Shown here: positions 57,228 through 61,196 of the stretch, piece after piece | Layout of the letters: each line of letters opens with the position of its first letter | Position numbering within the stretch: the first letter of the stretch is position 1 | NCBI RefSeq assembly: GCF_011604685.1 | Contig: NZ_CP050063.1 | Location: 3,618,501-3,682,500, forward strand | DNA from: Spirosoma aureum | GTDB taxonomy: Bacteria > Bacteroidota > Bacteroidia > Cytophagales > Spirosomataceae | Direction: 5' to 3' | DNA: 64,000 bases | Notes under the pieces: generated by a model | Told to the model about the DNA's origin: nothing | The model's input: only the letters and a program-made list of their open reading frames with translations | The model's database searches: none | Program-made: the position numbers and the translations under genes

Positions 57228-57339
57228 ACAGTACACTGGAGATTTTTTGTTAAGCGGCCATTGAGGATGTGTAAAAATAAGATTCCTGTTGACAGGGTGT
57301 GCGGTAACCCAATGTCGAATGTTTTCGTCGATGATTATA

Positions 57340-57354
57340 CCGCAGCGGCGGCGG
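57340..57354 (-). repeat. Micro-insertion A10 (15 nt)
   Basis: CCGCCGCCGCTGCGG between codons for IEGW and YNHRRK; in frame, adds PPPLR. Nearly the same protein position as insert B5. Confidence 0.8.
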
Positions 57355-57426
57355 CCAGCCCTCAATGTACTCGAATATAGCTAACCGAGCTGCAGCTCGT
57401 GTCGCAAAATGAGCGTGATTCACCAA

Positions 57427-57442
57427 CCGCAACGGCGGACCG
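57427..57442 (-). repeat. Micro-insertion A11 (16 nt)
   Basis: CGGTCCGCCGTTGCGG between KSE and LVNHAHF; shifts the frame. Confidence 0.85.
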
Positions 57443-57506
57443 TTCACTTTTGAGCGTCTTAAAAAAACTCTCCGCCACAGCGTTATCCCAACAATTGCCC
57501 CTGCGG

Positions 57507-57521
57507 CCGCCGGGCGGCCCC
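57507..57521 (-). repeat. Micro-insertion A9 (15 nt)
   Basis: GGGGCCGCCCGGCGG inside QSMT/RRGNCWDN; in frame, adds five residues (GPPGG) next to the catalytic glutamate helix. Confidence 0.8.
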
Positions 57522-57598
57522 GTCATGCTCTGTGCAACCGGTAAGCCCTTCAACTCATCTCCAAATGAGCAGCAAGCATACTGAATACCTCGGTCCGA

Positions 57599-57614
57599 CC
57601 GGGTCGCCGGTGCG
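57599..57614 (-). repeat. Micro-insertion A8 (16 nt)
   Basis: CGCACCGGCGACCCGG between VFH and SDRG, splitting the motif of the second catalytic Asp; shifts the frame. Confidence 0.85.
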
Positions 57615-57786
57615 ATGGAAGACCAGCTTGCCATCTATCGCTCTGTTTTTGAAGGCCATCCGCCAAGCTGCTACACTGGTCTCTACCGCTTTCAAGCCTT
57701 CACTCATAGCCCAGCCAATTACTTTTCGATCTGCCAGATCCAAAATCACAGTCAGATATAGCCATCCCTCTTTTGTGGCAATGTAA

Positions 57787-57802
57787 CCGGGCCGCCGGGC
57801 GG
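57787..57802 (-). repeat. Micro-insertion A7 (15 nt within a 16-mer)
   Basis: Adds ARRPG between WVSDIT and YIATKEG, in frame. The plus strand reads CCGGGCCGCCGGGCGG, identical to 36487-36502 in arsM. Confidence 0.85.
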
Positions 57803-57818
57803 TGATATCAGAAACCCA

Positions 57819-57834
57819 TCGCTTCGGCGCTCCG
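57819..57834 (-). repeat. Micro-insertion A6 (16 nt)
   Basis: CGGAGCGCCGAAGCGA between GQN and WVSDIT, 16 nt from A7; shifts the frame. Confidence 0.8.
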
Positions 57835-58031
57835 ATTTTGACCGGGCTTATCGGCCGTAAACGCCCTGTTTAACAGATTTTTAGGCACTGGATAATCATG
57901 AGTCGAGTCGGTCGTTTGCACCCGATACTTTTTGTAGACAATGCTCCGAATCCCTGGTTTCCTCATGAGTCTGGCAATACGGTTACGCGATACCTTCACG
58001 CCCTGCTCACGAAGTGCGTCGGCAATCCGAG

Positions 58032-58045
58032 CCCCCGTGGCGCGG
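58032..58045 (-). repeat. Micro-insertion A5 (14 nt)
   Basis: CCGCGCCACGGGGG inside the codons for GRYGSP/RIADAL; shifts the frame. Its plus strand shares CCGTGGCGCGG with insert B5. Confidence 0.85.
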
Positions 58046-58258
58046 GACTACCATAACGACCTTGGCTCTGAGCATGCACTTGCCGGATATGGCTCACCAA
58101 CTGTTCCTGGTTTCGTTGGCGAGTGCCGACGGGATGCTTACGCCAGTAATAGTAGCCGCTACTGCTCACCTTCAATACTTTACACATCTTCTCGACGGGA
58201 AATAGATGAGCATTTTCCTTTATAAATCGGAATACTTTCCGTCGGTCCTGGAGAAGAT

Positions 58259-58539: not shown

Positions 58540-58727
58540 TGCCATTCCCTTGAACGCTTCGTCATAAACATGTCGTTTAACCATAGTCAAATTGGAGTTA
58601 GTCTCCCAAATCTGCCTAAAAAAAGTCTCCAGTCAAATGTAGCAAGTCCAAACCCATCATGGCCGTAGCCCGTAAGATGGGCATCAGTGATAGCCTAATT
58701 CACGCTTGGCGGAAGAGCAATGACAAT

Positions 58728-58742
58728 CGGTCCGCCGAAGCG
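58728..58742 (+). repeat. Micro-insertion B1 (15 nt)
   Basis: CGGTCCGCCGAAGCG between KSNDN and GEKKTDQ; in frame, adds RSAEA. Confidence 0.75.
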
Positions 58743-58855
58743 GGGGAAAAGAAAACCGACCAAAATCTTCAGCAGGAAGTCGAGACGCTTCGTAAACAAC
58801 TACGGCAATCGGAGATGGAGCGCGAGATTCTAAAAAAAGCCTTAGCCATTTGCAG

Positions 58856-58872
58856 TCCCGGCGAGGAACCGC
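58856..58872 (+). repeat. Micro-insertion B2 (about 15 nt)
   Basis: GC-rich TCCCGGCGAGGAACCGC at the end of orfA, directly after KKALAI, close to the place of A4 in copy A. Similar to 27998-28014. Exact borders uncertain. Confidence 0.6.
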
Positions 58873-59050
58873 GACAAACCTGACTCATGTTTACCGATTC
58901 ATTAAGCTGGAAGAAGACAATTTCCCTGTACGACTACTCTGTAAGATGCTGAATGTTAGTAAGACTGCCTATTACACGTATCGCAATGGAACAACGTTTA
59001 CTCCATCGGATAGCACACTATCTAGGACTACAGCCATCGATAAGATCTTC

Positions 59051-59066
59051 TGCGGGGCCGCCCATG
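59051..59066 (+). repeat. Micro-insertion B3 (16 nt)
   Basis: TGCGGGGCCGCCCATG between DKIF and RENSRRYGSRR; shifts the frame by one as expected. Confidence 0.8.
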
Positions 59067-59378
59067 CGGGAAAACTCACGGCGCTATGGCAGTCGTCGGG
59101 TGTTAGAAGAGCTGAAAGAACAGGGCGTCAAGCCCGGTCGTCATCGGGTACGTCGGTTGAGGCAAGAACAGGACTGGCAAGCAATTCAACCGCGTAGCTT
59201 CGTACCGAAAACGACTGACTCCCGGCCTGGCTTAATGGCTTGTGCAAATCGGTTGATTAAGTTGGGTAAGCCGACTGCGCCTAACCAAGCTTGGGTGGGC
59301 GACATCACTTATCTGCCTCTTTCAGATGGGGCCTGGGCTTATCTGGCCAGTTGGATGGAGTGGTCCGATTTCTATGGT

Positions 59379-60386
59379 TCAAGCAAGGGTTGGCTTATAA
59401 TTTTTATCATATTTTTCATTTCGGCGGACTACAGCATAGACCCGATGAATGAGCTTATTGCGGACAGCGTTTAAAATTAGCATTCGATTTTTGCCTTGGG
59501 CTACTTTCCGCTGATAATAAAGTTGCAATTCACCCTTACTTTTAACCGCCGCCATAGAGGCCAGATGTAATAAAGTTTTCAATGATTTACGAGCGTGGTG
59601 ATTGACTCGAGTACGTCCCCGAACACTACTTCCCGAACGATGTTCAAAAGGAGCTACACCGGCATGGCAAGCTAGCTTCTTCGGTTCAGTAATTGTCTTG
59701 AATTCGTCAGTGGCAATGATTATCTCAGTAGCAACGATAGTGCCCACTCCAGGCACGGATGTAAGAAGGCTAAAAAGAGTTTTCAACTCAGCGTCATTCT
59801 GTATCAGACTTTTAAGGCTAGCTTCCACTTGCTCAAGATCCTTTTTTAGTGCCTTGAGCGAGTCACCACAGTGCCCTTTTAATTGGTGCGGAAGCGCCCG
59901 ATCACCGAAACGTTTTTGCTCCGTCAAGGGAACCGCTAGTTGATTAATAACTGATTGCAAACGATGACGAAGTTGGCTCAACTCAGTTAATTGCTTTAAA
60001 ACAGAACGAGTCGGTTGCCAGATGCGTAAACGATCTCGGAACCGATACGCGTACTCAGCAATGCGAACTGCATCAATGGCATCTGACTTACCCCGTTGTA
60101 AACCACCAGCTTGTTTAATCTGAATGGATGCTTCCAACCACAAACGAAAGCCTTCCTGATAAAATACTTCTAACACATGGGCATTGTAAATACCCGTATG
60201 TTCCAGACAGCAAATACTGGTGGCTAAAGCAAACTGAGGTAAAGCCACTAACTGTTTGACGGCCTTGGAAACTGCCTTCGGTGAATTGTCAGATTGAAAT
60301 TGACCGACTAAGCCGGTAGGTGTGTAAATAGCCCAATCAAGCGTGTTCTTTGATACGTCAATACCAATGAAATAGTGAAATTGCAT
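59379..60386 (-). CDS. IS110-family transposase (RuvC-like DEDD recombinase)
   Basis: Intact 335-residue protein. The N-terminal RuvC-like domain has FIGIDVSKNTLDWAIY (first Asp), CCLEHTGIYNAHVLEVF (Glu) and GKSDAIDAVRIAEYAYRF (the Asp pair). The C-terminal Tnp_20 domain has LLTSVPGVGTIVATEIIIAT, KLACHAGVAPFEHRSGSSVRGRTRVNHHARKSLKTLLHLASM with the catalytic serine region. IS110 elements move as circles without terminal repeats and are guided by a structured RNA encoded next to the gene. It is inserted in IS3 copy B and looks potentially active, since no insert lies inside the coding part. Confidence 0.93.
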   Translation of the reverse strand: MQFHYFIGIDVSKNTLDWAIYTPTGLVGQFQSDNSPKAVSKAVKQLVALPQFALATSICCLEHTGIYNAHVLEVFYQEGFRLWLEASIQIKQAGGLQRGKSDAIDAVRIAEYAYRFRDRLRIWQPTRSVLKQLTELSQLRHRLQSVINQLAVPLTEQKRFGDRALPHQLKGHCGDSLKALKKDLEQVEASLKSLIQNDAELKTLFSLLTSVPGVGTIVATEIIIATDEFKTITEPKKLACHAGVAPFEHRSGSSVRGRTRVNHHARKSLKTLLHLASMAAVKSKGELQLYYQRKVAQGKNRMLILNAVRNKLIHRVYAVVRRNEKYDKNYKPTLA

Positions 60387-60640
60387 AAGCTCTGTTATTT
60401 AAGGGTGAAGCAATGGACTTGTCCCTATTCTCAATACCTTACTAAGGGTCGGACGGCCGATGCCGCCTGGTGTCCCACATTTCTATTCGAGTCGGGGGCA
60501 AGAAGACAGAGCAGGACCTGAATCGGACCATAGGTTATACCTAGCCACCGCGATAGGGAAGCCCGCTCTGATGTTTTTAGAAAGCTAGCTAATTCTCAGA
60601 TTCTTACCATGCCACAAACCTAAAGGCCATCGCGGTTATT
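60387..60640 (-). ncRNA. Candidate bridge RNA region of the IS110 element
   Basis: About 250 nt of non-coding element DNA upstream of the transposase start. In the IS110 group this end encodes the bridge RNA that pairs with donor and target DNA. It is inferred from position only; I have not folded it. A GC-rich 16-mer CGGACGGCCGATGCCG at 60450-60465 resembles the IS3 micro-insertions and, if inserted, could disturb the RNA. Confidence 0.4.
60450..60465 (+). repeat. GC-rich 16-mer like the micro-insertions, in the IS110 leader
   Basis: CGGACGGCCGATGCCG, close to A3 read as CGGATGGCCGAAGCCA. No reading frame is available to prove insertion. Confidence 0.4.
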
Positions 60641-60879
60641 TTCTCGGCGTATTGTCGGCTGGCTGGGTCGATACACATATGAGAGAAAGTATGAGTATCA
60701 AAGCATTTGACCAACCTATTGAGTTGCGTCAACCTAAAGCGGGCTTGATTGTTCATTCAGATCGGGGTGGTCAATATTTCGGTCATCATTTCCGAAAACG
60801 ACTTGATAAATGGCAGTGTAAGCAAAGTATGGCCGAAGCGGATAACCCTTACCAAAATGCGCATGCTGAGTCATTTTGG

Positions 60880-60895
60880 GTGGGACCGCACAGGC
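60880..60895 (+). repeat. Micro-insertion B4 (16 nt)
   Basis: GTGGGACCGCACAGGC between HAESFW and GRLKAELLED; shifts the frame by one as expected. Confidence 0.85.
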
Positions 60896-60982
60896 GGTCG
60901 ATTAAAAGCAGAGTTGTTAGAAGATGGCTGTTTTATGAACCTACAAGATGCTCGCGAGGAGTTGTTTAACTATATTGAAGGC

Positions 60983-60996
60983 CACCGTGGCGCGGG
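60983..60996 (+). repeat. Micro-insertion B5 (14 nt)
   Basis: CACCGTGGCGCGGG between FNYIEG and YYNVRRLHS; shifts the frame. Nearly the same protein position as A10. Confidence 0.85.
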
Positions 60997-61196
60997 TATT
61001 ATAATGTGCGTCGATTGCACTCGGCGTTAGGCTATCGTTCCCCGATTGCTTTTGAAAACCAATTTTACCAAACTGTTTTATCAAACTCTCATAAGTGAAG
61101 TGTCCGGCCAAATAGGACCACCCCACTCCTGGTTTTGATGGTCCACTAAGATTAGATCGTGCTTAACTTAATGTCCAGTCAAATTTAGCAGCTCCA

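Follow-up and report, generated by a model that had tools for sequence, protein, structure and literature searches.

The 64,000-nucleotide stretch of Spirosoma aureum DNA analysed here (the window; GCF_011604685.1, NZ_CP050063.1, positions 3,618,501-3,682,500 of the forward strand) contains two IS3-type elements, copies A and B, and the second of these is interrupted by an IS110-type element (Table 1). Both copies were aligned with IS3 relatives, and the GC-rich segments that a sequence-only reading had singled out were identified as insertions: in copy A the count of eleven and the size range of 14-16 nt agree with the alignment, and in copy B, for which at least five had been claimed, five were found. 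Specifically, copy A matches L043:1501-2749 (genome G015) at 79.4 % of 1249 aligned bases; this relative is free of the inserts, and its frames of 276 and 108 amino acids are open. The insertions measure, in alignment order, 15, 16, 15, 16, 15, 16, 14, 14, 16, 15 and 16 nt, at a few sites one nt apart from the lengths given earlier, and beyond these eleven there is no gap of 8 nt or more (gaps were listed from 8 nt up). Copy A exceeds its relative by 174 nt (1423 vs 1249), of which the inserts make up 168 and small indels the remaining 6 nt net. In copy B the inserts near 58727, 58856 and 59052 were seen against both L324 (G021) and L348 (G016), and those near 60880 and 60980 against L324 only; L321 has the latter two as well. 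L324 itself is not free of inserts: both it and L321 have a family 16-mer at the position that corresponds to window 60767, where copy B has none. At the place of B1 an identical insert is present in L347 and different sequences in L321 and L323, while at that of B3 other sequences are found in L321, L322 and L323.

Table 1. IS elements and micro-inserts at the locus, in window coordinates; pairs refer to the architecture described in the text.
Feature	Position	Strand	Remarks
IS3-type element, copy A	57228..58650	-	eleven inserts; aligned to insert-free L043:1501-2749
A1	57340..57355	+	15-nt type, 7/8 pairs; L043 alignment
A2	57427..57443	+	16-nt insert plus flank base X1, 8/8 pairs; site filled in 5 IS3 copies
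A3	57507..57522	+	15-nt type, 8/8 pairs; site 245, filled in 12 IS3 copies
A4	57599..57615	-	16-nt type, 8/8 pairs; L043 alignment
A5	57787..57802	-	15-nt type, 8/8 pairs; L043 alignment
A6	57819..57835	+	16-nt type, 7/8 pairs; L043 alignment
A7	58031..58045	-	14-nt type, 6/8 pairs; L043 alignment
A8	58257..58271	+	14-nt type, 6/8 pairs, poor fit; L043 alignment
A9	58300..58316	+	16-nt type, 8/8 pairs; site 948, occupied in many IS3 copies
A10	58420..58435	-	15-nt type; 7/8 pairs reached only with a 3-nt shift
A11	58523..58539	-	16-nt type, 8/8 pairs; site 1138, occupied in many IS3 copies
Second IS3-type element, copy B	58651..61196	+	five inserts and the IS110-type element
B1	58727..58743	-	16-nt type, 8/8 pairs; missing in L322, L324, L348
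B2	58856..58870	.	15 nt; missing in 6/6 aligned relatives; poor fit to the architecture
B3	about 59053..59069	-	16-nt type, 7/8 pairs; missing in L347, L324, L348
IS110-type element	59360..60635	-	interrupts copy B; outside the micro-insert family; one matching 17-mer at 60449-60465
B4	about 60881..60897	-	16-nt type, 7/8 pairs; missing in L324, common to L321
B5	about 60981..60995	-	14-nt type, 7/8 pairs; missing in L324, common to L321

The unit, taken together with the adjoining target base X1, can be written A(1-4) n5 B(6-9) A'(9-12) n13 B'(14-17), with A paired to A' and B to B'; most inserts form two overlapping 4-bp hairpins that have one base in common, and the most frequent form is X1 X2 G C N N C G G C X2' X1' N C C G N'. 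Shorter loops account for the shorter inserts: n5 or n13 is missing in the 15-nt types, and both are missing in the 14-nt type, which fits less well. All eight pairs fit in 70 of the 141 IS3 inserts compared to 35 of 2820 composition-shuffled controls, and at least seven in 113 compared to 328, where each control was given 18 tries and each insert was scored at the best-fitting among several shifts and strands. Moreover, the four variable pairs covary (32, 38, 33 and 37 of 39 distinct elements paired; shuffles 20.8, 21.1, 16.1 and 23.1). The consensus CGGTCCGCCGnnGCGG proposed earlier represents one variant within a structural family. The single hairpins have little stability (as DNA, -3.2 to -4.1 kcal/mol; 0/6 beyond z -1.8), and perfect eight-pair units number 10 in the whole window vs 0-7 in five Markov shuffles, so the structure without the GC-rich core is not specific. 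A relaxed scan for 7/8 pairs plus the GC core, over 400 kb each, gave 32 matches vs 15 in reversed DNA for G016 and 42 vs 18 for G000.

At least 16 further genomes of the genus, among them single-contig assemblies, have IS3 copies with such inserts, and many insert sites are common to different species. Pairs of near-identical IS copies differ in their inserts: L091 and L094 (99.4 % identical) by two lone 16-nt differences, and L092 and L093 (98.5 % identical, same genome) likewise by two. In neither case is there a duplication or deletion. Three of the four inserts lie 29-314 bases from the next other difference, and at site 510 L092 and L093 are unlike in the adjoining base as well. That near-identical copies differ by clean 16-nt insertions, two of them within one genome, and that so many assemblies carry inserts of the same kind, excludes in practice the sequencing or assembly artefact which the sequence-only reading had left open; its probability is negligible.

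Identical 16-mers occupy unrelated bonds, across two IS3 families and across species. In copy-A-type IS3 elements CAGGGCGGCCTGTGCC is present at sites 102 and 493, and it recurs in L324 and L321 (copy-B-type) at the place of window 60767; CGCTTCGGCGATCCGA is present at site 948, reversed at sites 201 and 228, and also in the copy-B-type L322 and L323. All but one of the 113 well-fitting inserts have a pyrimidine before the join, and the target preference is a loose RY|YY, i.e. mostly a purine ahead of a pyrimidine with no fixed tetranucleotide. Element base 12 mostly pairs with the target pyrimidine X1: at site 201, T is found in 31/31 unfilled copies and A in 5/5 inserts, and at site 245, C in 22/23 unfilled copies and G in 7/7 inserts, with exceptions to the rule at sites 102, 1062, 1138 and in parts of 228, 321, 511, 948 and 1171. 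No further flank pairing (base 0 with 13, 5 with 18) was found, and single-strand folding at the target sites gave no signal (p = 0.28 and 1.0). Comparisons of near-identical copies revealed neither target duplication nor base loss at the joins.

These data suggest that the segments constitute a family of 14-16-nt GC-rich elements, mostly overlapping hairpins, likely moved in single-stranded form by an enzyme acting in trans, a reading to which we assign a probability of roughly one half; they are best read as a new element family that is ultra-short and non-autonomous. The element would travel as single-stranded hairpins to be joined in trans, the pairing of base 12 with the target pyrimidine may help to choose the target, by analogy with the guide bases of IS200/IS605 elements, and elements may also leave precisely. 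The full proposal, a 16-nt two-hairpin transposable element of Spirosoma and its kin that reads its target through one base pair (X1:X1'), enters and exits precisely without duplication and depends on a trans transposase of a type not yet known, is put forward tentatively, at less than even odds.

Part of the insert pattern is accounted for by descent with precise loss. In its strict form, in which all insertion is ancient, with one or a few hits per site, and the present mosaic reflects descent, IS recombination and precise loss, this explanation draws on the many sites common to several species and on the clustering of well-fitting inserts. With an edit distance <5 the 26 sites give 28 events, one cluster at 24 of them and two only at sites 245 and 321; with <6 all 26 sites have one cluster and none has more. 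A first count had put the events at these 26 sites at 33 (P = 0.022, 156 RY|YY positions) and pointed to hot-site re-use of bonds, a claim we dropped because each length class had been taken as a separate event; the recount of 28 events, with 25.7 distinct sites expected, shows no excess. Since evidence for re-use of one bond is weak, sharing between species may largely be due to descent, recombination or loss. However, no cluster of linked SNPs accompanies the differences within the pairs L091/L094 and L092/L093, and at site 245 the inserts of L091 and L093 differ at 6/16 bases in IS copies that are 91.6 % identical. Up to 9 changes are required on the tree for 11 carriers. Moreover, the same 16-mers at unrelated bonds still require past movement and precise loss requires a mechanism, and we regard old inserts alone as an unlikely explanation.

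Template switching during replication would need no dedicated enzyme: a stalled 3' end with a purine-pyrimidine last would likely move to an element elsewhere, copy it and return, the hairpins setting the limits. Hairpins can stall polymerases and make them switch, and elements in or adjoining long palindromes are found at times in both arms (L112/L118) and at times in one (L114, L130), as arm-to-arm correction would leave them. The fixed ends at unrelated flanks, the donor flank that is never carried along and the patchy presence among genera of one family argue against this route, which we consider unlikely.

Of the 291 genomes of the order, 19 show a strong excess of the core pattern, 16 of them within this family; of 332 genomes outside the order, none does. 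YCGCNNCGGCGRNCCG occurs 38 times in G000 vs 3 for the reversed control, and pattern and control counts are 247 vs 0 in G016, 217 vs 2 in G256 and 94 vs 0 in G169. Favourite variants exist: one 16-mer makes up 16/24 matches in G083 and one 17-mer 7/32 loose matches in 400 kb of G016. Enrichment, presence/absence and identical 16-mers at unrelated bonds together support the earlier idea of a tiny mobile repeat. The alternative of an error-prone process, if it acted on transposons only, is not supported, since matching elements are also intergenic, in Spirosoma and in related genera. This also speaks against a host defence that breaks transposons by hairpins, which is most improbable despite two IS3 families having been struck and a matching 16-mer lying where the frame of a third, putatively IS630-like transposase gene is broken. 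The many elements in intergenic DNA and dead IS copies would reflect only the purging of insertions that hit live genes.

With respect to the moving enzyme, Y1 (PF01797) has matches in 9/11 genomes tested but none in G000 or G004. RAYT has matches in 230/291 genomes of the order; it has none in G023 or in G016 (the richest in elements, with five Y1 matches), and one weak match (3.2e-4) in G000. The core pattern is missing from the flanks (up to 1.5 kb) of 26/30 Y1/RAYT loci; of the other four, L163 and L167 represent a single broken gene, around which several elements are dispersed, L148 has a pattern match inside the RAYT frame and L157 one match near the locus end. Given neither co-occurrence nor regular flanking of the genes, RAYT and Y1 were rejected as the mover. 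The Y2 (IS91-type) transposases were rejected as well (0/12 element-rich and 3/15 element-poor genomes), and reverse transcriptase matches (9/12 rich vs 6/15 poor genomes) are not decisive.

Elements of the IS200/IS605 group, as detailed for IS608, insert after a short target without target duplication and use base pairing between element and target. The inserts resemble them in these three respects, albeit with only the loose RY|YY preference at the target; unlike them, they have no transposase gene and nothing between their ends, and two carrier genomes lack a Y1 match. The target-site duplication of MITEs was not found at the inserts. A REP/REPIN family moved by RAYT would be in keeping with short, multicopy, GC-rich intergenic palindromes, the inverted pairs seen in G256, a trans spread as proposed for both, and the commonness of RAYT in the order. 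REP elements measure 20-40 bp (PMC3733652), whereas the inserts have 14-16 nt, overlapping hairpins and no counterpart to the GTAG or CGTC head. The IS3 inserts are also single, and the link to RAYT is missing: genera with RAYT but without elements are common, G016 and G023 have elements but no RAYT match, and the core pattern is missing at most Y1 loci. This origin is very unlikely.

The yeast mitochondrial GC cluster studied in PMC4478555 has 42 nt and a reported putative target duplication, in which it differs from the inserts. Compared by description, both are GC-rich palindromes in AT-richer DNA with quick gain and loss. The double-hairpin elements of Allomyces are larger and have their hairpins side by side. 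For those in Allomyces mitochondria, mobility was inferred from presence/absence according to PMC7218506; compared by description, two hairpins and this type of evidence are shared, and the Spirosoma elements are smaller, overlapping and non-organellar. A literature search, mostly outside subscription journals, found no description of such 14-16-nt elements, and the Spirosoma inserts are likely among the smallest mobile DNA on record.

If mobile, these elements are far below the size usually thought to be needed for a transposable element and would define the minimal requirement of a transposase, and they would imply an enzyme able to insert 16-nt hairpins at selected bonds, which could be used as a tool. 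The near-identical copies allow gain and loss to be counted directly. Finally, mobility would account for one origin of frameshifts, and of hairpins paired between genes, in a family of bacteria.

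The GC-rich inserts are real, and the clearest evidence comes from two pairs of near-identical copies. The loci L091 and L094 are 99.4 % identical over 1291 bases, and two 16-nt insertions, one at site 245 and one at site 1171, are present in L091 alone (sites are numbered insertion places in copy-A-type IS3); L092 and L093, from one genome, are 98.5 % identical, with an insert at site 245 only in L093 and one at site 510 only in L092. At all four differences no base was lost and, by length, none doubled. For three of them, 29-314 bases separate the insert from the nearest other difference; the fourth is site 510, where the adjoining base differs too and the next difference is 22 bases away.

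The window derives from the 8.9-Mb genome G000, which consists of one contig, and matches to copy A were found in 32 of the 36 genomes of the genus searched. Copies without inserts occur in G015, and alignment of copy A to one of these confirmed the eleven inserts of 14-16 nt that the sequence-only reading had proposed. Copy B belongs to another IS3 group (matches in 27/36 genomes), and its five proposed inserts were also recovered: B1-B3 are absent from the relatives L324 and L348, while B4 and B5 were called against L324 as the sole unfilled reference. Other sequences occupy the B1 place in L321 and L323 and the B3 place in L321, L322 and L323. At least 16 other genomes have inserts at the tabulated sites in their IS3 loci. 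A set of 43 sequences (locus L042/L074 entered twice) left 172 gaps of 12-20 nt after the first filter, AT-rich chance gaps among them.

Coordinates of the features (window positions unless a locus or genome is named)
Feature	Position	Remarks
Copy A, IS3-type	57228-58650 (-)	A1-A11
Copy B, IS3-type	58651-61196 (+)	B1-B5
IS110-type element	59360-60635	splits copy B cleanly; frame 59379-60386 open
Perfect eight-pair 17-mer	60449-60465	near right end of the IS110-type element
Place of a family 16-mer in L324 and L321	60767	none in the window
Insert-free copy-A relative	L043:1501-2749	G015; open frames of 276 and 108 aa
216-bp tandem repeat	50270-52407	9.9 copies, 92 % match; within 2781-aa frame (44651-52996)
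DabA (PF10070) gene adjoining NADH/Mrp-antiporter-type subunit gene (PF00361)	29453-33869	likely a DAB-type inorganic carbon transporter
Same 16-mer with same flanks (G000)	L306 near 4852; L317 near 8711	at transposase frame break, near an IS3 copy
Elements near IS200-type genes	G083:C1 3006580, 3012954, 4095286	0.3-3.0 kb away

Together with the preceding flank base, an insert can be drawn as two overlapping hairpins with eight pairs. The fit set comprised 141 GC-rich inserts, 13-17 nt long, after removal of rows that had less than 60 % GC or poor flanks. Taking the best fit across shifts and both strands, 70 met all eight pairs and 113 at least seven; among the 73 distinct elements the numbers were 28 and 53, and for shuffled letters (18 tries) 35 and 328 of 2820. 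Four pairs are variable (1:12, 2:11, 6:17 and 7:16), and across 39 distinct 17-mers they covary well above column shuffles, whose figures are not strict probabilities as the sequences are related; the remaining four are nearly invariant and hence uninformative. The 16-, 15- and 14-nt classes result from loops of 4+4, 4+3 and 3+3 nt, respectively, and the arrangement maps onto itself under reverse complementation. Each hairpin is weak as DNA, and the two cannot fully form together because base 9 is common to both. A7, A8, A10 and B2 fit poorly. Among the IS3 inserts of the genus, 32 of 39 distinct elements have the same base at loop position 13 as at position 6, for which the two hairpins do not account.

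Read in element orientation, 112 of the 113 well-fitting inserts are joined directly after a C or T, and with one copy per site a purine precedes that pyrimidine at 21/26 sites and a pyrimidine follows at 22/26. Element base 12 pairs with the target base in 47 of 57 site-element combinations (30.2 in shuffles), and unfilled copies often already hold the matching base: site 201 has T in 31/31 unfilled copies and A in 5/5 inserts, and site 245 has C in 22/23 and G in 7/7. Exceptions are sites 102, 1062 and 1138 and, in part, 228, 321, 511, 948 and 1171. This match points either to pairing-guided target choice or to later stem correction.

Filled bonds are few and each is shared by many copies; in a tree of 37 copies, one site with 11 carriers required up to 9 changes. 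One main rival explanation is that old inserts with loss account for the pattern. At 24 of the 26 sites the inserts form a single cluster (edit distance <5), and a test with events defined by edit distance gave no excess of bond re-use across the 26 sites; an earlier apparent excess came from treating length classes as events and was dropped. Much of the sharing is therefore probably due to descent with recombination and precise loss, and re-use is suggested at sites 245 and 321, where the inserts fall into two clusters each. Identical elements also occur at unrelated bonds: CAGGGCGGCCTGTGCC at sites 102 and 493 and in copy-B-type IS3, and CGCTTCGGCGATCCGA at site 948, reversed at 201 and 228, and in the copy-B-type loci L322 and L323. 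These cannot be explained by descent at one bond.

With enrichment defined as 20 or more matches and at least a fivefold excess over the reversed control, YCGCNNCGGCGRNCCG is enriched in 19 of 291 genomes of Cytophagales (hand tally), i.e. 16/46 in Spirosomataceae and 3/245 outside it, and in 0/332 genomes from other orders of the phylum. The highest counts (pattern versus reversed control) were 247 vs 0 in G016, 217 vs 2 in G256 and 119 vs 1 in G079, and two genomes have favourite variants. Two 200-kb blocks of G016 hold 9 perfect elements in 47.6 kb non-coding and 3 in 352 kb classed as coding (frames of at least 120 aa), with 3 in shuffled DNA; the numbers for G000 are 13, 7 and 6, 10 of the 13 lying in one knowingly picked cluster of broken IS elements. 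The L306/L317 pair, where the broken transposase gene is presumably IS630-like, may represent a block duplication. Elements are frequently located within or next to long palindromes, in one arm or both; intergenic examples are L112/L118 (G256), L114 (G147) and L131 (G016), and a recurrent G016 palindrome (tttgtcatgct...agcatgacaaa) carries the 16-mer at one place.

In the open-access literature consulted the nearest kin are REP/REPIN, mitochondrial GC clusters and double-hairpin elements (PMC3116915, PMC3733652, PMC2817692, PMC7218506, PMC8266576, PMC4478555). No description of a 14-16-nt bacterial element was found in open-access literature. Template switching is the other main rival for the pattern. 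The ends are constant, the target is not duplicated, one target base is paired and the hairpins are conserved, features reminiscent of IS200/IS605 and its single-strand chemistry. As possible movers, Y1 had no match in G000 and G004, RAYT none in G016 and G023, though present in 230/291 genomes of the order, and Y2 none in 12 genomes rich in core-pattern matches. The proximity of elements to IS200-type genes in G083 was taken as chance, since six fetched copies of that gene have no element within 1.5 kb. As Y1, RAYT and Y2 do not track the elements, we propose that these would be moved by another trans-acting enzyme.
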